This document shows positions 31,098 through 39,544 of a stretch of DNA of 64,000 bases, piece by piece (positions within the stretch are counted from its first letter, which is position 1; each line of letters starts with the position of its first letter). The notes below the pieces were generated by a model. That model searched no databases. It was not told the origin of the DNA and saw only the letters and a list, made by a program, of their open reading frames with translations. The DNA comes from Streptantibioticus cattleyicolor NRRL 8057 = DSM 46488 (GTDB lineage: Bacteria; Actinomycetota; Actinomycetes; Streptomycetales; Streptomycetaceae): positions 992,001 to 1,056,000 of the forward strand of contig NC_017586.1 of NCBI RefSeq assembly GCF_000240165.1. Reading direction: 5' to 3'. Both the position numbers and the translations under genes were made by a program.

Positions 31098-32396
31098 TCA
31101 GCCTCCCACTGCCGGCCGCGGCAGACCCAGGTGGTCCCGCAATGTGGTCCCCTCGTACTCGGCGCGCAGCGAGCCGCGTTCCTGGAGCAGCGGGACGACC
31201 CTGTCCACGAAGTCGTCCAGACCGCCCGGGGTCAGATGCGGAACGAGGATGAATCCGTCGGCCGCGCCCGCCGCGACGAACCCCTCCAGCGCCGTCGCGA
31301 CCGTCTCCGGCGAGCCGACGAAGGAGTGGCGCGCGGCCAGTTCGATCACCGTCTCGCGGATCGACAGCCCCTTCTCCTCGGCCAGGGCACGCCACCGGGC
31401 GGCGGTGGCCAGCCGGTCGGCGTGGCGCACCCGGCCCTGGCTCACCTCGCCCGCCGGCTCCGGGTCGATGTCGGGGAAGGGGCCGTCGGGGTCGTAGCCG
31501 CTCAGGTCGCGCCCCCACAACTGCTCCAGGAAGACGATGGCGGTGGGGCCGGAGACCTGCCGGCGGCGGATCCCGGCGGCCCGTTCGGCGGCCTCGGCGT
31601 CGGTGTCGCCGAGGACCACGGTCACCCCGGGCATGATCTTCACATCGTCCGGCCGCCGTCCGTACCGGGCCAGGCGCCCCTTGACGTCGGCGTAGAAGGC
31701 GCGGCCGGCCTCCAGCGTGCCGTGCCGGGTGAAGACCACGTCGGCCGTGGAGGCGGCGAACTCCCGCCCCTGCCCGGAGTCCCCGGCCTGGATGATCACC
31801 GGCCGACCCTGCGGGGTGCGGGGCACGGTGAACTCGCCGTGGATGTCGAAGTGCCGGCCACGGTGGACGAAGGGCCGGGCCTGTCCGCCCGGGGTCCAGG
31901 AGTCCCACAGCGTCCGGGCCGCGGTGACGAACTCGGCGGCCCGGGTGTAGCGGTCGGCGTGGTCCAGGAAGCCGCCGCGCCGGAAGTTCTCACCGGTGAA
32001 CGCGTCGGAGGAGGTCACCACGTTCCAGGCCGCCCGGCCGCCGCTGAGGTGGTCCAACGAGGCGAGCCTGCGGGCGAGTTCGTACGGTTCGTTGAAGGTG
32101 GCGTTGACCGTGGCGGCGAGCCCGACGTGCTCGGTGACGGCGGCCAGCGCGGCCAGCACGGTGACCGACTCGGGCCGGCCGACCACGTCCAGGTCGTGGA
32201 TGCGCCCCTTGTGCTCGCGCAGCCGCAGCCCCTCGGCGAGGAAGAAGAAGTCGAACCTGCCGCGTTCGGCGGTGCGCGCGAGGTGGTGGAAGGAGGAGAA
32301 GTCCACTTGCGAGCCGGAGGCCGGGTCGGACCAGACGGTGGTGTTGTTGACGCCGGGGAAGTGGGCGGCCAGGTGCATCCGGCGGGGCGCGGTCAT
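31098..32396 (-). CDS. NtaA/SnaA/DszA-type FMN-dependent monooxygenase
   Basis: A 432-aa bacterial luciferase-fold (TIM-barrel) flavin monooxygenase. MHLAAHFPGVNNTTVW at the start, FDFFFLAEGL, AATVNATFNEPYELARRLASLDHLSGGRAAWNVVTS (as adjoining segments) and IIQAGDSGQGREFAA are typical of the NTA/DBT-sulfone monooxygenase group, which needs reduced FMN from a separate reductase. ATG 32396 overlaps the stop of the upstream LLM gene (ATGA). Family members cleave C-N or C-S bonds in chelators, sulfones and alkyl sulfur compounds; with the neighbouring importer this suggests a scavenging role. Confidence 0.92.
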   Translation of the reverse strand: MTAPRRMHLAAHFPGVNNTTVWSDPASGSQVDFSSFHHLARTAERGRFDFFFLAEGLRLREHKGRIHDLDVVGRPESVTVLAALAAVTEHVGLAATVNATFNEPYELARRLASLDHLSGGRAAWNVVTSSDAFTGENFRRGGFLDHADRYTRAAEFVTAARTLWDSWTPGGQARPFVHRGRHFDIHGEFTVPRTPQGRPVIIQAGDSGQGREFAASTADVVFTRHGTLEAGRAFYADVKGRLARYGRRPDDVKIMPGVTVVLGDTDAEAAERAAGIRRRQVSGPTAIVFLEQLWGRDLSGYDPDGPFPDIDPEPAGEVSQGRVRHADRLATAARWRALAEEKGLSIRETVIELAARHSFVGSPETVATALEGFVAAGAADGFILVPHLTPGGLDDFVDRVVPLLQERGSLRAEYEGTTLRDHLGLPRPAVGG

Positions 32397-33433
32397 CGGG
32401 CGGCCTGCCGGGACGGCGCGTAGCGGTTGGCCGGGCGCGGCAGGCACAGGTGGTCGCGGAGGGTGTCGCCGGTGTAGAAGCGGCGCAGCAGTCCGCGTTG
32501 CTGGAGCAGCGGGACGGTGGCGTCGGCCAGCCGGGCCAGGTCGCGCGGCGGATCGGTGGGGCGCAGGTGGAACCCGTCGGCGGCGCCGTCGCGGAACCAG
32601 TCGCCGATGCGTGCGGCCAGGCGTACCGCGTCGGCCGGGTCGACCAGGTCGACGCGGAGCGAGGCGAGCACGGTGAGCCGGTCCGGGTCGCGCCCCGACT
32701 CCGCGGCGCGGTGGCGCAGTTCGGCGCGGAGCGAGGCGGCGGTGCCGGGGTCGTCGGTGCGGACGTAGGCCACGTCCGCGCGGTCGGCGGCGAGGGCCCG
32801 GGGGGCGGGGTCGGTGGCGTCCACGGCGATCAGCGGGTGGCCCTGGGGCGGGCGGGGCACGATCGAGGGGCCGCGGACGGTGAACCGCTCGCCTTCGAAG
32901 TCCACGTGGTGGAGCTTGTCCCGGTCGATGAACCGGGCGGTCGCGGTGTCGCGGATCTCGGCGTCGTCCTCCCAGCTGTCCCACAGCCGGGTCACGACGT
33001 CGGCGACCTCGGCGGCCTCCCGCCACAGCGCGTCGGCGGGCTCGGCCGGCCGGCGGCCGAAGTGGGCCGCCTCCGCCTCGGTGGCCGAGACCTGGACGGT
33101 CCACCCGGCCCGGCCCCGGCTGACCCAGTCCAACGTGGCCACCTGGGTGGAGAGGTGGAACGGCTCGGTGTGGGTGGTGGTGACGGTCGGCACCAGCCCG
33201 ACGCGACCGGTGCGCGGGGCGACCCGGGCGAGCACGGCGAGCGCGTCGAGCCTGGGCACGCCGGGGGCGGGCGGGGCGAGCGAGTCGTCCAGGGTGACGA
33301 AGTCCAGGCAGCCGCGTTCGGCGAGCCGGGCCAGCGCGGTGAAGTGGTCGGCCTGGTACACCCCGGGGGCGTCGATGGCGGCGGCCAGGTGGAGCGGCCG
33401 GGTACGGCCACGGGCGGTTGCGGGTCCGGGCAT
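32393..33433 (-). CDS. LLM-class flavin-dependent oxidoreductase
   Basis: A 346-aa luciferase-like monooxygenase. HLAAAIDAPGVYQADHFTALARLAERG, the FVTLDDSL segment and VATLDWVSRGRAGW show the TIM-barrel flavin fold. It is shorter than NtaA-type enzymes and has lost some of their insertions. It is coupled by ATGA to the downstream NtaA-type gene, so the two enzymes are made together and may share substrate or reductase. The start ATG 33433 follows a 76-bp gap after the binding-protein gene. No flavin reductase gene is in the cluster. Confidence 0.9.
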   Translation of the reverse strand: MPGPATARGRTRPLHLAAAIDAPGVYQADHFTALARLAERGCLDFVTLDDSLAPPAPGVPRLDALAVLARVAPRTGRVGLVPTVTTTHTEPFHLSTQVATLDWVSRGRAGWTVQVSATEAEAAHFGRRPAEPADALWREAAEVADVVTRLWDSWEDDAEIRDTATARFIDRDKLHHVDFEGERFTVRGPSIVPRPPQGHPLIAVDATDPAPRALAADRADVAYVRTDDPGTAASLRAELRHRAAESGRDPDRLTVLASLRVDLVDPADAVRLAARIGDWFRDGAADGFHLRPTDPPRDLARLADATVPLLQQRGLLRRFYTGDTLRDHLCLPRPANRYAPSRQAAR

Positions 33434-33509: not shown

Positions 33510-34478
33510 TCACTGGCTGGTCCTGGGCAGCCCCGGCGGGTTGATCTCGGACCGGGGCACCGCCTCCGCGCTCAGCCCCCAGCGGGCCAGCACCTTGGCG
33601 TAGTCGCCGTTGCGGATCACCTCGTTGATGGCGTCGGCGTACGCCTTGACCAGTCCGTCGCCCTTGCGTGTGGTGGCGGCGATCTTGCCGGTGAGCGAGC
33701 CGCCGCCGGAGAGGGTGCCGACGATCCGGGTGCGGCCGGAGACGGCGCAGTGGTAGGCGGCGGTGGGGTCGGGGCCGAGGTAGGCGTCGATGCGGTGGGA
33801 CTGAAGGGCCAGGTAGTAGTCGGAGGCCCGCTGGTAGTACCGGACGTCCACCGGTTTCAGTCCCGCCTTGACGTCCTTGGCGCTCCAGTCGAGCAGGATC
33901 TTCTCCTGGTTGGTGCCGGAGGAGACCGCGATGGTCTTCCCGGCCACGTCCTTGGGCCCGGTCACCTTCCAGCCGGCCGCGTCCTTCGGCGCCTCGAAGG
34001 CGAGTTCGTCCAGCCGGTAGGTGGCGAAGTCGTACCGTTCCTTGCGTTCCTCGGTGACCGTGATGTTGGCGAATCCGGCGTCGTAGGCGCCGCTGTCCAG
34101 GCCGACGAAGAGCTGTTCCCAGGAGGCCACCTCGAACCGGGGTCGCAGGCCGAGGGTGTCGGCGACCAGGGTGGCGATGTCGTACTCGACGCCGATCGGG
34201 GTCTTGTCGTCGGTGGCGTAGAAGCTCAGCGGCGGCGCGGTGTCCGCGGTGCCGCCGATCACCAGGGTGCCGCGGGCCCGGACGGCGGCGGGCACTTCGG
34301 CGGCGATGGCGGCGACCTTCGCGGCGCGGATCCGGTGCTGGTCGGGGCCGAGGTCGATCCTGGACCCGGCCGGGGCGGCGACCGGGTCGGCGGTGCCGGT
34401 GGCGCCCGGGCCGCAGCCGCTGAGCAGCCCGGCCATGACGAGGACGGCGGTGGCCGCGGCGGCGGTGCGTGTGATCAC
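33510..34478 (-). CDS. amino-acid-type ABC transporter substrate-binding lipoprotein
   Basis: A 322-aa lipoprotein. GTG 34478 follows AAGGAG by seven bases and starts a lipoprotein signal peptide ending in the lipobox LLSGC. The mature part is a family 3 solute-binding protein: GVEYDIATLVADTLGL, VGLDSGAYDAGFANITVTEERKE and the late YYLALQSHRIDAYLGP region. It should capture a polar amino-acid-like or sulfur-containing ligand outside the membrane and pass it to the permease encoded upstream. Family 3 proteins include cystine and taurine-like binders; the ligand is unproven. Confidence 0.92.
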   Translation of the reverse strand: MITRTAAAATAVLVMAGLLSGCGPGATGTADPVAAPAGSRIDLGPDQHRIRAAKVAAIAAEVPAAVRARGTLVIGGTADTAPPLSFYATDDKTPIGVEYDIATLVADTLGLRPRFEVASWEQLFVGLDSGAYDAGFANITVTEERKERYDFATYRLDELAFEAPKDAAGWKVTGPKDVAGKTIAVSSGTNQEKILLDWSAKDVKAGLKPVDVRYYQRASDYYLALQSHRIDAYLGPDPTAAYHCAVSGRTRIVGTLSGGGSLTGKIAATTRKGDGLVKAYADAINEVIRNGDYAKVLARWGLSAEAVPRSEINPPGLPRTSQ

Positions 34479-34507
34479 GTGGTGACTCCTTGGCCGAGGG
34501 GCGGCGG

Positions 34508-35284
34508 TCACAGCACCTTGGACAGGAAGGTCCGGGTGCGTTCGTGGCGGGGGTTGTCGAGGACGGCGGCGGGCGGCCCCTGTTCGACGACGCGACCGCC
34601 GTCCATGAAGACCACGGTGTCGGCGACCTCGCGGGCGAAGCCGATCTCATGGGTGACGACGATCATGGTGGTGCCCTGCCGGGCCAGGTCCTTGATGACG
34701 TCGAGGACCTCGCCGACCAGTTCCGGGTCGAGCGCCGAGGTGGGCTCGTCGAACAGGAGCAGTTCGGGTTCGAGGGCGAGCGCGCGGGCGATGGCGACGC
34801 GTTGCCGCTGGCCGCCGGAGAGCTGGGCGGGGTAGGCGCCGGCCTTGTCGGCGAGCCCGACCCGGTCCAGCATCCGCTCGGCGGCGGCCACCGCGTCCGC
34901 CCGGCGCCGGCGCAGCGCGGCCACCGGCGCCTCGACGACGTTCTCCACCACGGTCAGGTGCGGGAAGAGGTTGAAGGTCTGGAAGACGAAGCCGATCCGG
35001 GTGCGTTGGCGCAGCACCTCGCGTTCGGTCAGCTCGTACAGCTTGCGGCCCGCGCGGCGGTAGCCGACCGGGCGGCCGGCCACGCTGATCCAGCCGCTGT
35101 CCGCCTTCTCCAGGTGGTTGATGGTGCGCAGCAGCGTGGACTTGCCCGAGCCGGACGGCCCGAGGACCACCGCGACCTGCCCCGCGGCCACCGTCAGGTC
35201 GATCCCGCGCAGCACCTGGAGGGCGCCGAACCGCTTGTGCACGCCGCGCAGTTCGACCATGGGCGGGGCGGCCGGCGCGGTCAT
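34508..35284 (-). CDS. amino-acid-type ABC transporter ATP-binding protein
   Basis: A 258-aa ATPase of the GlnQ/HisP class. Walker A GPSGSGKST, Q-loop FVFQTFNLFPHLTV, signature LSGGQRQRVAIARAL, Walker B LLLFDEPTSALD and switch His (THEIGF) are all intact. ATG 35284 overlaps the permease stop by the ATGA junction, so the stoichiometry is probably coupled. It energises uptake by the membrane and binding-protein partners next to it. Confidence 0.95.
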   Translation of the reverse strand: MTAPAAPPMVELRGVHKRFGALQVLRGIDLTVAAGQVAVVLGPSGSGKSTLLRTINHLEKADSGWISVAGRPVGYRRAGRKLYELTEREVLRQRTRIGFVFQTFNLFPHLTVVENVVEAPVAALRRRRADAVAAAERMLDRVGLADKAGAYPAQLSGGQRQRVAIARALALEPELLLFDEPTSALDPELVGEVLDVIKDLARQGTTMIVVTHEIGFAREVADTVVFMDGGRVVEQGPPAAVLDNPRHERTRTFLSKVL

Positions 35285-36168
35285 CGGGCGGCCCCGCGGG
35301 CGTAGCGGCGCTCCACGTAGTGCTGGAGCACCGAGAGCACGGTGGTGAGCAGGACGTACCAGACGGTGGCCACCATCAGCAGCGGGATGACCCGGGTGTT
35401 GCGGCCGTAGACCACCTGGACCTGGTAGAACAGCTCGCCGATCGCCATCACCGAGACGATCGAGGTGCCCTTGAACAAGGAGATCACCTCGTTGGCGGCG
35501 TTGGGCAGGATGGCCCGCATGGCCTGCGGCAGCACGATGCGGCGCAGTTGGCGCAGCCGGGGGATGCCCAGGGCGGCGGCAGCCTCGCGCTGCCCGGGGT
35601 CGACCGAGAGCACCCCGGCCCGCACGATCTCGGCGGCGTAGGCGGCCTGGTGGAGGGCGAGCCCGAGGACGGCGGCGCCCATGGAGCTGACCATGTCGCG
35701 GGTGTCGAAGGAGAAGAACCCGGGGCCGAACGGGATGCCGAAGTCCAGCCTGCGGTAGAGCACCGAGAGGTTGAACCAGAACAGCAGCTGCACGATGAGC
35801 GGGATCGAGCGGAACGCCCACACGTAGCCGAAGGCCACCGCGCGCAGGAACGGGCTGCCGGACAGCCGCAGCAGCGCCAGCACCAGGCCGAGGGCGAAGC
35901 CGAGCACGGTGCCGTAGACGGTGAGCTGCACGGTGACGCCGAGCGCCTTGAGGATCGAGTCGGCGGTGAAGAACGCGGCGAACGTCCCCCAGTCCCACAC
36001 CGGGTTGGTGACCAGGCCGTGCACCAGCTGGGCGAGGAGGACGACGACCACCGCGGTGGCCACCCAGCGCCAGGGGTGGCGGGCGGGCACGATGGTCAGG
36101 GTCTCGGGGCCGGCCGGGCCGGCGCGTTCGGGGACCGCGCCGACGGCGGGGTCGGTCGTCACGGACAT
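35281..36168 (-). CDS. amino-acid-type ABC transporter permease
   Basis: A 295-aa membrane protein with about five transmembrane helices (from residue 34 on) and the EAA cytoplasmic loop EAAAALGIPRLRQLRRIVLPQA, the docking site for the ATPase. AFRSIPLIVQLLFWF is characteristic of the HisMQ/GlnP group. ATG 36168 has GAGGAA six bases upstream. A single permease gene is present, so it would work as a homodimer. It lies 34 bp downstream of the FAD/NAD protein gene. Confidence 0.94.
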   Translation of the reverse strand: MSVTTDPAVGAVPERAGPAGPETLTIVPARHPWRWVATAVVVVLLAQLVHGLVTNPVWDWGTFAAFFTADSILKALGVTVQLTVYGTVLGFALGLVLALLRLSGSPFLRAVAFGYVWAFRSIPLIVQLLFWFNLSVLYRRLDFGIPFGPGFFSFDTRDMVSSMGAAVLGLALHQAAYAAEIVRAGVLSVDPGQREAAAALGIPRLRQLRRIVLPQAMRAILPNAANEVISLFKGTSIVSVMAIGELFYQVQVVYGRNTRVIPLLMVATVWYVLLTTVLSVLQHYVERRYARGAAR

Positions 36169-36202
36169 GACGGTTTCCTCCAGGGACGGGGACGGGGACG
36201 GC

Positions 36203-38167
36203 TCAGGCGGTGAGCGCGGGCGGGGCGTCGCCGGTGGCGAGCGTGCGCAGGAAGGCGAGGGCGGCGCGGGCGGTGGCGTCGTTCTGCCCGAAGGCGGGGG
36301 CGTTGGTGCGCGGGCGGGCGAAGGCGGCGTAGGCGCGGCCGTTGGTGTGCGGGCCGAGGGCGAGGCGGCGGGGGTGCGGGCGGCCGTCGCGGTCCAGGAC
36401 CCGGGAGTCGCCGGGGTCGACGGCGAGCAGTCCGGTGGGCAGCGCGGTCGTGCCGTCGTACAGCACCTCCTCGCCGCCACCGCCGTCCTCGGCGAGGGCG
36501 CGCAGCAGCGGGTCGCGCGAGCGGTGCACCGACGGTGCGGGCAGCCGGGCCTCGACCAGGGCCCGGGCGGTCACGTCCCCCGGCCAGGTGGTGCCGGTGG
36601 CCCGGAAGGCGCGGGCCCGGGGGTCGGCGTGGACGGTGAGCCCGGCGCCGAGGAAGCGGACCACCCCGGCGCGGGAGAGCGCGAGCAGTTGCCGCAGCCG
36701 GGGCGCGGGCGGGCCGGAGGCGTAGAAGCTGAAGAACCCGTGCCACCAGCCGTCCACCTCGGCCAGCCGGGAGCGCGGGGCGAGCCTGCCGGAGCCCACC
36801 AGCGGGACGAGGTGGGTGTAGACCGACAGCATGGCCAGGAAGACCGCGAGGTCGGGGCTGTGCGCCCGGTCGACGCGGCGGTCGAGGTCGGCGGTGACGT
36901 GGTCGCGCAGATAGGACTGGAACGTCTCCTCGTCCGGGCAGCGCACCCCGGCCAGCGGATGGTCCAGCGCCACCGGGTCGAAGCGGTCGGCCGGGTCGGG
37001 GACCGCGTCGGCGATCAGGGCGTCCAGTCCGGCGCCGCCGGGTGCCGCGGCGGCGAACTTCTCCTCGAAGTCGGGCCAGTTGACCCGGGTGCGCTCGGGG
37101 TGGGCGGTGAACAGCCGGTGGTAGTGGGCGTAGGCCAGCTCCTTGGCGATCAGCGGCCACACGTCGCGCCGGAAGTCCAGCGCCGGGCGGGTGAGCAACT
37201 CGCCCACCTGCTCCGGCCCGAAGAACCGGGGTAGCGGCGTCCGTTCGCCCCACCAGCCGTAGCCGATCTTGGCGTGGTACGGCACCCCGCGGCGCGACCC
37301 CACGTGGAGCACCGGTTCCCGGCCGGAGGGCAGGTAGACCAGCCCGCCGTGATCGTCGGTGCGGTACCTGCCGCCGCGTCCCTCGGTGAGGAGCACCATC
37401 AGGTCGACGAAGGCGAGGCCGAAGCCGCGGACGATCACCGGTTCGCCGGGGCGCAGCGCCGACAGGTCGGCGTCGGCGGTGTACGCGGGCGGGATGTGGA
37501 CCAGGCCGTGCTCGCGGGCGAACCGGGTCAACTCGCGCTGTTCGTCGTCGGGTTCGGAGTCCAGGTGGCCGAGGGCGAGGACGACCAGGTCGGCGGTGAG
37601 CGGCTCGGGGACGCCCTCCAGCCAGACCCGTTGGCGGCCGTCGCGCGGGCCGGTCACGCGTACCGCGCGGCGCCGGTGGCGGTGGAGCCGGACGCCGGGC
37701 GGCAAGGCGGCCACCGCCTGCTCGTACACCCAGGCCAGGTAGGCGCTCTGGACCCGGCGGGAGGGGAAGGCGGTGGGGGTGAGCCGGCGTACCTCGGCGG
37801 CGAGTGCCGGGTCGGCGGGGGCCGGTATCCGGCCGGCGCGGACCCGCTCGGCCCATTCGGCGAGCGTCGGCCCGGGGCGCACCGGTCCGGCGCAGGTGAC
37901 CGACTCGTCGAGGAACATGGTGACGTCCTCGGCCATGGAGTTCATCCACAGCAGCGGCGACTGGTCGGCGCGCCAGACCCGTCCGGCGCCGGGCGGGTAC
38001 GGGTCGACCAGGTGGACGTCGAGCGGCGAACCGCCGTACAGCTCCGGGACGTTGGCGGCGAGGCGTTCCAGCAGTCCGGTGCCGCGCGGACCGGCGCCCA
38101 CGACGACCAGCGAGGGTACGGTGCCGCCGGGGTGCGGCGGGCGGGACGGAAGGGGGGAGACGGGCAT
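36203..38167 (-). CDS. FAD/NAD(P)-binding protein (NAD_binding_9-like)
   Basis: A 654-aa flavoprotein-like protein with an N-terminal dinucleotide fold, SLVVVGAGPRGTGLLERL (residues 19-36), then a WRADQSPLLWMNSMAEDVTMF block and a second nucleotide segment VIVRGFGLAFVDLMVLLTEGRGG. The family is sometimes called adenylate cyclase/lysine N-hydroxylase-like; its reaction is not known. It is the first gene of the cluster, reading into the ABC importer and two flavin monooxygenases, and may supply an oxidoreductase step or reducing power. ATG 38167 has GGAG seven bases upstream. Confidence 0.85.
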   Translation of the reverse strand: MPVSPLPSRPPHPGGTVPSLVVVGAGPRGTGLLERLAANVPELYGGSPLDVHLVDPYPPGAGRVWRADQSPLLWMNSMAEDVTMFLDESVTCAGPVRPGPTLAEWAERVRAGRIPAPADPALAAEVRRLTPTAFPSRRVQSAYLAWVYEQAVAALPPGVRLHRHRRRAVRVTGPRDGRQRVWLEGVPEPLTADLVVLALGHLDSEPDDEQRELTRFAREHGLVHIPPAYTADADLSALRPGEPVIVRGFGLAFVDLMVLLTEGRGGRYRTDDHGGLVYLPSGREPVLHVGSRRGVPYHAKIGYGWWGERTPLPRFFGPEQVGELLTRPALDFRRDVWPLIAKELAYAHYHRLFTAHPERTRVNWPDFEEKFAAAAPGGAGLDALIADAVPDPADRFDPVALDHPLAGVRCPDEETFQSYLRDHVTADLDRRVDRAHSPDLAVFLAMLSVYTHLVPLVGSGRLAPRSRLAEVDGWWHGFFSFYASGPPAPRLRQLLALSRAGVVRFLGAGLTVHADPRARAFRATGTTWPGDVTARALVEARLPAPSVHRSRDPLLRALAEDGGGGEEVLYDGTTALPTGLLAVDPGDSRVLDRDGRPHPRRLALGPHTNGRAYAAFARPRTNAPAFGQNDATARAALAFLRTLATGDAPPALTA

Positions 38168-38274
38168 GTGAAGGCTCCGACGGGATCACCGCGCGACGAC
38201 TCGCGCGTCACGGAAATCGCCTTCACACGGCCGCGCCCCTCAACGCGGCCAGGGCCCGACCAGGCCCCGCCCCG

Positions 38275-38305
38275 AGGCTATGCCGACGGCGCCGCCGGTT
38301 GTCAA
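38275..38305 (-). promoter_or_regulatory. promoter of the FAD-ABC-monooxygenase operon
   Basis: On the minus strand, TTGACA (38305-38300) is followed after 17 bases by CATAGC, which continues as TAGCCT (TAnnnT). This is close to the vegetative HrdB consensus. Transcription would start near 38268, giving a leader of about 100 nt before ATG 38167. No riboswitch fold that I can name is visible in that leader. Confidence 0.55.
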
Positions 38306-38341
38306 CCCTGTCCAGCAGGTGGTCACCGCGTCTCATCATGG

Positions 38342-38370
38342 TTGACGTGTCCGCGTTGGACTGCTCAACT
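38342..38370 (+). promoter_or_regulatory. promoter for the plus-strand leader peptide
   Basis: TTGACG (38342-38347), a 17-base spacer, and TCAACT (38365-38370) place the start of transcription at or next to ATG 38377. The peptide would then be translated from a leaderless transcript. This promoter is divergent from that of the monooxygenase operon, 36 bp away. Confidence 0.5.
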
Positions 38371-38376
38371 GTGCTC

Positions 38377-38451
38377 ATGCGCTCGCAGGAGTTGGTCACC
38401 CGCGGCCACATCGACTTCGGTCGGGTGTGGTCGTCCTCGTGTTGTCGTTGA
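38377..38451 (+). CDS. putative Cys-type leader peptide (24 aa)
   Basis: A short frame begins MRSQELVTRGHID and ends SSSCCR followed by TGA. Short ORFs with this pattern (a basic start, then an H-x-D segment, and a Cys-rich last few codons) are the putative leader peptides that precede sulfur-assimilation genes in many actinobacteria and act by ribosome stalling at Cys codons. The adjacent cluster is of the kind such leaders control, but it lies on the other strand. Nothing convincing follows on the plus strand. It is too short for ordinary gene finders. Confidence 0.6.
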   Translation: MRSQELVTRGHIDFGRVWSSSCCR

Positions 38452-39097
38452 TCCGGTAGCCGGCCGCGCAGACGGCCCGTTCTCCCCTTGATCCGACCAC
38501 GTCCGGGCGCCTCTCCCCCGGTCAGCCGCGGCTACCGTTCCTCCTTCGGCCTTCCCGCCTTCACACCGTGTCAGCAGTTCCCGCCGCGCCCGCCCTGGCA
38601 GCACTCGCACGAGCGCGTGCGGCAGTCGCACCCCGTACAGCCGTCCTCACGACACCAGCCGTACTTCGGCCCGCCCCGCGCCGCCGGCGCCGGCGCCGCA
38701 CCGTGGATCAACTCGGCGTCCGTCATGCTCCCGGTCGACCTCGCCGCGACCGCCGCCCCCTCGTTCGGGTGTTTCGCCGACCGGGGGCGGGGCAGGCGAC
38801 GGGCGCTCGGGCGGCGGGTGAACGGAGGGTGCGGTGCGGTGACGGAGGGGTGAGGAGATTGGGGGCGTGGGCCGTCCGGACGCGCCCCTTCACTCTCCCG
38901 TGCGCCGGGCGTGACAGGATTTCCAGCGCCCCGTCAGCTTCCTTGTGCACCGCGTCCCCTGACGCAGCGCCATGCCGGTCGTGCACCAGTAGCGTCACGA
39001 ATCCCCGGTCCGGTCCATTTCCACTTGGCGCTTCCTCCGCATCATGGACGACGATAGGGGGGCGGACGGTACGGACCGCAGCGTTAAGGAGGCGTCC
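38452..39097. other. 646-bp gap after the leader peptide; no gene recognised
   Basis: A weak hairpin, GGCCG/CGGCC (38462-38477), is followed by a pyrimidine-rich stretch to about 38560. Open frames on both strands here have weak third-position GC preference and low-complexity Arg/Pro/Ala composition; I do not believe any of them. It could be a decayed gene once controlled by the leader, or simply a long spacer before sflA. Confidence 0.5.
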
Positions 39098-39544
39098 ATG
39101 GGTTCGGTGCGAAGGGCCAGCGCCTGGCTGGGGCTCGTCGACGAGGGCGGGGACGAGCGTTACTACGACGAGGAGTACACGGACTACCCCGAGGCCCCGC
39201 AGACCACCGAAGCCTGGGTGACCGATCCACGGGTGCAGGTGGCCGGGGAGACGGCGGAGCAGCAGGGGCGGCGGATCGCCACCGTCACCCCGGACGGCTT
39301 CCGGGACGCGCGGGGCCTCGGCGAGCTGTTCCGGGACGGCATCCCGGTGATCGTCAACCTCACGGCGATGGAACCGGCCGACGCCAAGCGGGTGGTCGAC
39401 TTCGCCGCCGGGCTCACCTTCGGGCTGCGCGGATCCATCGAACGGGTGGCCAACCGGGTCTTCCTGCTGACGCCCGCCGACTACCTGGTGGTCAGCGCGG
39501 AGGCGGCGGGGCGTTCGGCGGACGGGTTCTTCAACCAGAGCTGA
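39098..39544 (+). CDS. sflA: SepF-like protein (SflA type)
   Basis: A 148-aa protein with an N-terminal amphipathic, membrane-binding-like start ([13 protein letters not shown]), an acidic linker (about 15-55), and a C-terminal SepF fold: [40 protein letters not shown] and [13 protein letters not shown]. Streptomyces has sepF plus two paralogues, sflA and sflB; the location near dnaE2 and an acyl-CoA dehydrogenase is that of sflA as I recall. SepF anchors FtsZ to the membrane, and the SflA/B proteins influence hyphal tip and branching behaviour. ATG 39098 has AAGGAGG upstream. Confidence 0.85.

Follow-up and report, generated by a model that had tools for sequence, protein, structure and literature searches.

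The role of a leader peptide is usually assumed to be confined to the gene immediately after it. The closest described systems come from mycobacteria: leaderless, short polycysteine ORFs (Ms4527A and its relatives), which are attributed to Canestrari et al. (2020) in the passages of PMC13236596 and PMC9094748 that cite that work; a mycobacterial precedent for leaderless short ORFs is also found in Shell et al. (2015; PMC4633059). In Streptomyces lividans, the leaderless attenuators (leuL, trpL, metL and others) all precede their target genes, and the table that lists them includes no Cys leader (PMC8079986). In Sinorhizobium meliloti, the attenuator transcript rnTrpL, which starts at the ATG of the leader encoding the peptide peTrpL, also acts in trans on another mRNA (PMC7298713). 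A search of the open literature returned no report of an orphan Cys leader, which is not proof that none exists.

Here, we analyzed a Cys-type leader located in a 64,000-nt stretch of the Streptantibioticus cattleyicolor genome (hereafter the window, to which all coordinates refer). Like the leaders of the mycobacterial Ms4527A type, the window leader is short, apparently leaderless, ends in Cys codons and is related to them at the profile level; in relatives it is followed by sulfur-type genes. Unlike them, it is divergent from the sulfur-type operon, its cis target is gone and its score is below the NCBI cut-off, while its family features the HIDFGRVW motif and one or two Cys codons. It shares with the S. 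lividans attenuators the apparent status of a leaderless leader peptide in a streptomycete, but is of the Cys type and has no target. The comparison with rnTrpL concerns a transcript that would start at the leader ATG and act on another mRNA, the trans action being what we propose for the window. However, rnTrpL is a Trp leader with its cis target in place, whereas the window leader is an orphan and its proposed target is the divergent neighbor.

The leader gene and its family

The original prediction described a 24-codon leader ORF starting at or next to its predicted transcription start; the ORF was confirmed, and the position of the promoter fits such a start. The ORF (MRSQELVTRGHIDFGRVWSSSCCR, 38377-38451, plus strand) comprises 24 codons followed by TGA; the C-terminal end of its product is SSSCCR, with the Cys codons TGT TGT. 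The promoter TTGACG-N17-TCAACT (38342-38370, plus strand) consists of hexamers at 38342-38347 and 38365-38370 separated by a 17-nt spacer, and this arrangement is conserved across the aligned relatives. This promoter is missed by a strict sigma-70 scan, which accepts only second hexamers with A as their second base. Since the second hexamer ends only 6 nt upstream of the ATG, the transcript is probably leaderless.

The leader matches the NCBIfam model NF042936 (leader_Ms4527A) with E = 1.5e-5 and 24.4 bits, which does not reach the curated cut-off of 45 bits. The same model is matched by the leaders of all 14 sampled relatives (best E = 2.2e-6), and a profile of the leader family finds matches in 153 of the 200 host-family genomes (E ≤ 1e-4). 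Because of these matches, we do not consider the leader to be a chance ORF, and its status as a real gene is strongly supported. As in Ms4527A-type leaders, the short ORF ends in Cys codons, and Cys is invariant there in relatives. The same-strand target that follows leaderless polycysteine attenuators is found in the target-bearing relatives and is missing from the window. Based on the family assignment and the mycobacterial precedent, the leader is predicted to sense cysteine. Another NCBIfam model, NF042934 (putative leader peptide, cis_reg_atten), finds other leaders in the same genome, three of them over its cut-off. Those that were read resemble the window leader in their R-H-[IV]-D...C pattern and in having Cys encoded by TGT. 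In this genome, the matches of the model do not include the window leader. The search against Rfam, both at the gathering threshold and at E ≤ 1, returned nothing relevant to the locus.

The divergent operon and the region downstream of the leader

Gene order confirms that the leader points away from the sulfur-type operon. The latter, encoded entirely on the minus strand, starts with the gene for an FAD-NAD(P)-binding protein (PF13454; 36203-38167), below referred to as FAD. It is followed by an ABC permease (35281-36174), whose best named match is the cystine permease family, an ABC ATPase (34508-35266), whose best named match is TcyN (L-cystine), a family 3 solute-binding protein (33510-34511) and two luciferase-like monooxygenases (32393-33433 and 31098-32300); both named ABC matches are below their cut-offs. 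Judging from these protein families, with cystine-type ABC components and monooxygenases, the operon may function in sulfur scavenging. Its promoter, TTGACA-N19-TAGCCT (38275-38305, minus strand), is conserved in the loci that lack the leader's target.

The divergent 5'UTR includes an inverted repeat (38229-38250, minus strand) with a 7-bp stem and the loop UUGAGGGG. In the window and relatives the loop, (U/C)UGAGGG, is nearly invariant, while the stem varies; there is no Rfam match, and the repeat might be an undescribed RNA element. A minigene or second leader on the minus strand of this UTR was considered and rejected, as the UTR has no consistent ORF.

Downstream of the leader, the original prediction saw no coding gene and suggested that the leader might regulate something now decayed in 38452-39097. 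The target is indeed absent, but the next co-directional gene, a SepF-like gene (39098-39544, plus strand), lies 647 nt past the leader. Likewise, relatives do have a downstream target that is missing here, but the intervening stretch is not its remains. It contains a 51-codon Cys-rich ORF (38571-38726, minus strand), the end of which matches the Cys-rich tail of a gene that is intact in relatives, where it lies between the leader and sepF in convergent orientation. The protein encoded by this gene (LFGIIRPCRHRL...) is presumably DUF5685. We thus rejected a decayed target within 38452-39097 in favor of a remnant of an unrelated, convergent DUF5685-like gene.

A possible attenuator stem (38454-38537, plus strand) can be formed by CGGTAGCCG (38454-38462) and CGGCTACCG (38529-38537), and is also present in the nearest relative, L040. 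In the leader region of the window, RNA folding is no better than that of shuffled sequences, and no intrinsic terminators were found.

Arrangements of the locus in relatives

Using the FAD protein as a query, we collected 100 loci besides the window (20 genome stretches and 80 loci from the genome collection), some of which represent the same locus sampled twice; all the named records belong to Streptomycetaceae. The leader ORF is conserved in the same divergent position in about 95 of these related loci, that is, in nearly all of them. One target-type locus, L104 (Streptomyces clavifer), is an exception in that no leader was detected.

Three arrangements can be distinguished, for two of which we use our own shorthand. 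In coelicolor-type loci, the leader is followed by a luciferase-like monooxygenase (MPVEFLGIAAT...) or ABC genes, and in griseus-type loci by a solute-binding protein gene. In the third, orphan, arrangement the only co-directional gene after the leader is the distant sepF. The search of close genomes for a gene following the leader, proposed together with the original prediction, thus found one (monooxygenase/ABC or solute-binding) in 54 loci. Over the whole sample, 54 loci with the cis target have a divergent permease gene located between FAD and the leader, and no locus without the target does; the permease is absent from 38 orphans and from two loci with a target, which are one Wenjunlia locus sampled twice. 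This co-occurrence (54 versus 0) indicates that the permease and the target were gained or lost together.

The leader sequence itself is conserved at two levels. The motif RxHIDFGRVW is conserved among relatives well beyond the Cys codons. In addition, all 89 loci use TGT as the first Cys codon, and 85 of them use GGT for Gly. Both are rare codons in such GC-rich genomes, and their fixation suggests a constraint on decoding or on the RNA. The conservation of RxHIDFGRVW would fit a leader peptide acting in trans, as a small protein or a peptide-RNA complex, for which peTrpL of Sinorhizobium provides a precedent (PMC7298713). Nevertheless, loci with a cis target have the motif as well, so that its function may lie in stalling of the nascent chain, and the fixed GGT and TGT codons point to the RNA or decoding instead. 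We therefore regard a trans-acting peptide as very unlikely.

Two further observations concern leaders in relatives. In three loci (L087, L091 and L112), the leader stop codon is lost, resulting in a C-terminal extension of about 18 codons with further Cys codons. In several coelicolor-type genomes (L053, L055, L126, L131 and others), the ABC operon that comes next downstream of FAD is preceded by a distinct second leader (LLTSRRHIDFGRTSSAICRLV).

Leaders without a target

The orphan state, in which both flanking genes are gone and the leader is kept, is found in the window lineage and 36 other non-redundant loci. A lone leader, which the original prediction deemed unusual, is therefore not so within this leader family. 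The 37 non-redundant rows on the FAD tree include three orphan loci that were missed by the first leader pattern and included later. On this tree, the orphan label requires 10 changes, counted in either direction, and well-supported branches make at least 8 of these unavoidable. Orphan clades include those of violaceusniger (11 species) and abikoensis (9 species). In a family-wide leader search, independent of FAD, all three orphans among the 30 best loci adjoin FAD. Five orphan genomes (G141, G151, G039, G171 and G109) have a single leader match each (E ≤ 1e-4), so that the orphan is the only close copy there.

The leader core is retained in all 37 orphan loci, three of which have a longer C-terminal end, and the promoter is kept along with it. 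Over the 17-codon core, pN/pS is 0.29 in orphans and 0.28 in target-bearing loci. The sequence immediately downstream behaves differently. In the violaceusniger clade, the core is 94.7% identical and the next 50 nt 49%; in the abikoensis clade, the respective values are 89.9% and 30%. The next 50 nt are 78% identical in griseus-type and 97% in coelicolor-type target loci. The window and its nearest relative show 82% identity over this region and have a 9-nt stem in common.

The drift of RNA 3' of the leader in large orphan clades is what would be expected if the orphan were a vestige, that is, an ordinary Cys attenuator that has lost its cis target, or from which the target has moved, and that is now functionless but not yet decayed. 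The window genome also has a second leader copy directly before the monooxygenase that is the target in relatives (leader and gene at G000:C2:5599802-5601166, minus strand; L060), and therefore the monooxygenase may have moved with its own leader. On the other hand, a vestige would hardly explain why no orphan locus has lost the core or the promoter, even in clades as large as 9 and 11 species, or why orphans and target-bearing loci have equal pN/pS. We consider a vestige rather unlikely, and selective retention of the leader without its target well supported. In the present assembly, the monooxygenase gene behind the second copy (C2:5.60 Mb) has an in-frame TAG.

The retained leader might instead control the next gene on its strand, the sepF-like one, with read-through extending across 647 nt. 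Several orphans do lack DUF5685, with sepF located 400-650 nt downstream. However, in most orphan loci the convergent DUF5685 gene intervenes, and the sequence 3' of the leader is poorly conserved, making control of sepF extremely unlikely. Retention rather suggests that the orphan leader now, or also, controls its divergent neighbor.

Matching elements on both sides of the leader

The motif GCCTTCACAC is present in two copies flanking the leader. The U element (38218-38228, minus strand) lies in the divergent 5'UTR and reads GTGTGAAGGCG (CGCCTTCACAC on the plus strand). The D element (CGCCTTCACAC, 38556-38566, plus strand) is located downstream of the leader and could form 11 bp with U in the divergent mRNA. 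Exact copies of the motif are concentrated at these loci: the 3.77 Mb that make up all of them contain 73, and 59 occur in the vicinity of the 89 non-redundant leaders, the two sets being slightly different. Coelicolor-type loci have GGCGTCRTCAC instead, in both the U and D positions, and the exact D copy is absent from most of the violaceusniger clade. As direct repeats on DNA, U and D are complementary in the two divergent transcripts, and can thus be read either as RNA-pairing elements or as sites for a shared protein.

We compared the longest U-D match within loci to that between loci of the same clade. The values are 9.37 and 8.52, respectively (z = 6.0; none of 2000 permutations as high), and because the U and D windows were picked after the motif had been seen, the permutation speaks to U-D matching within loci and not to the existence of the motif. 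No excess appeared for inverted matches, for two alternative windows downstream and one upstream, or for the promoter region and the leader ORF, six controls in all. The signal holds for orphans alone (z = 4.0, p = 0.0002) and for a partly overlapping set of 28 loci derived mostly from the leader search (z = 3.9), while in two leaders without a divergent partner U-D matches are at background only. By clade, griseus-type orphans and both kinds of target loci (griseus-type and coelicolor-type) show it clearly; the violaceusniger (p = 0.10), abikoensis and window clades are individually not significant. Duplex energies of U and D, computed in a reduced run, beat those of shuffled sequences only modestly (mean z of -0.9 for orphans and -1.8 for targets).

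These data bear on the possibility that U and D are DNA sites of one regulatory protein, which would coordinate the two promoters without any effect of the leader transcript on the divergent operon. The two elements are indeed direct repeats on DNA, both near the divergent promoters. Yet with a single protein one would not expect the U of a locus, compared within its clade, to fit the D of that locus better than those of its neighbors; this within-locus matching favors RNA pairing over a shared protein site, although permutation within clades reduces relatedness and does not fully remove it. Furthermore, the exact 10-mer occurs elsewhere in the window genome at about background frequency, often inside genes, and the conservation of the leader codons would be left unexplained. 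A shared protein is accordingly unlikely. We rejected a genome-wide operator as well: exact GCCTTCACAC occurs 12 times in the genome, with two copies here and the others often in genes.

Another possible partner of U in the window locus is GCCTTCACATG, which lies at the start codon of FAD (38165-38175, minus strand); their pairing would form a cis hairpin that occludes the start. The 9-nt match is present in the window and L100, but support in relatives is weak (own 5.56 versus swapped 5.35 over all loci), and this hairpin was set aside as a lead only.

Proposed function of the orphan leader

Of the two outcomes envisaged by the original prediction, joint regulation of leader and operon is thus the one favored, because the divergent gene is the most constant partner of the leader, the promoters of the two are conserved and U resembles D within each locus. 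From these sequence comparisons, we infer a functional link between the leader transcript and the divergent operon, which may consist in base-pairing with the operon mRNA. According to the proposed mechanism, the original target, a luciferase-like monooxygenase or solute-binding protein gene, would have been lost from the window locus, and an additional action of the leader transcript on the divergent sulfur-type operon would be what still keeps the leader under selection. Ribosomes would read Cys-tRNA supply at the UGU codons of the leader. When cysteine is short, RNA polymerase would pass the leader and produce an RNA containing the D element. D would then base-pair with U, its complement in the divergent 5'UTR, and alter the translation or stability of the divergent mRNA. 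We infer each of these steps, from cysteine sensing and read-through control to RNA pairing and the sign of the effect. Action of the leader on the divergent operon by this mechanism is the best explanation, to which we assign a probability of roughly 0.4.

A broader formulation, that the leader represents a stand-alone regulatory RNA gene whose Cys-controlled read-through RNA pairs through D with the divergent 5'UTR, such that one attenuator serves both sides of the divergent promoter region, is possible, if doubtful.

Lineages in which the target is gone and the leader is still under selection provide a natural experiment on the functions of attenuators beyond cis control, and one that is directly testable. 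Should the divergent operon prove to be the target, the reach of attenuation would include a gene whose transcription runs away from the leader.
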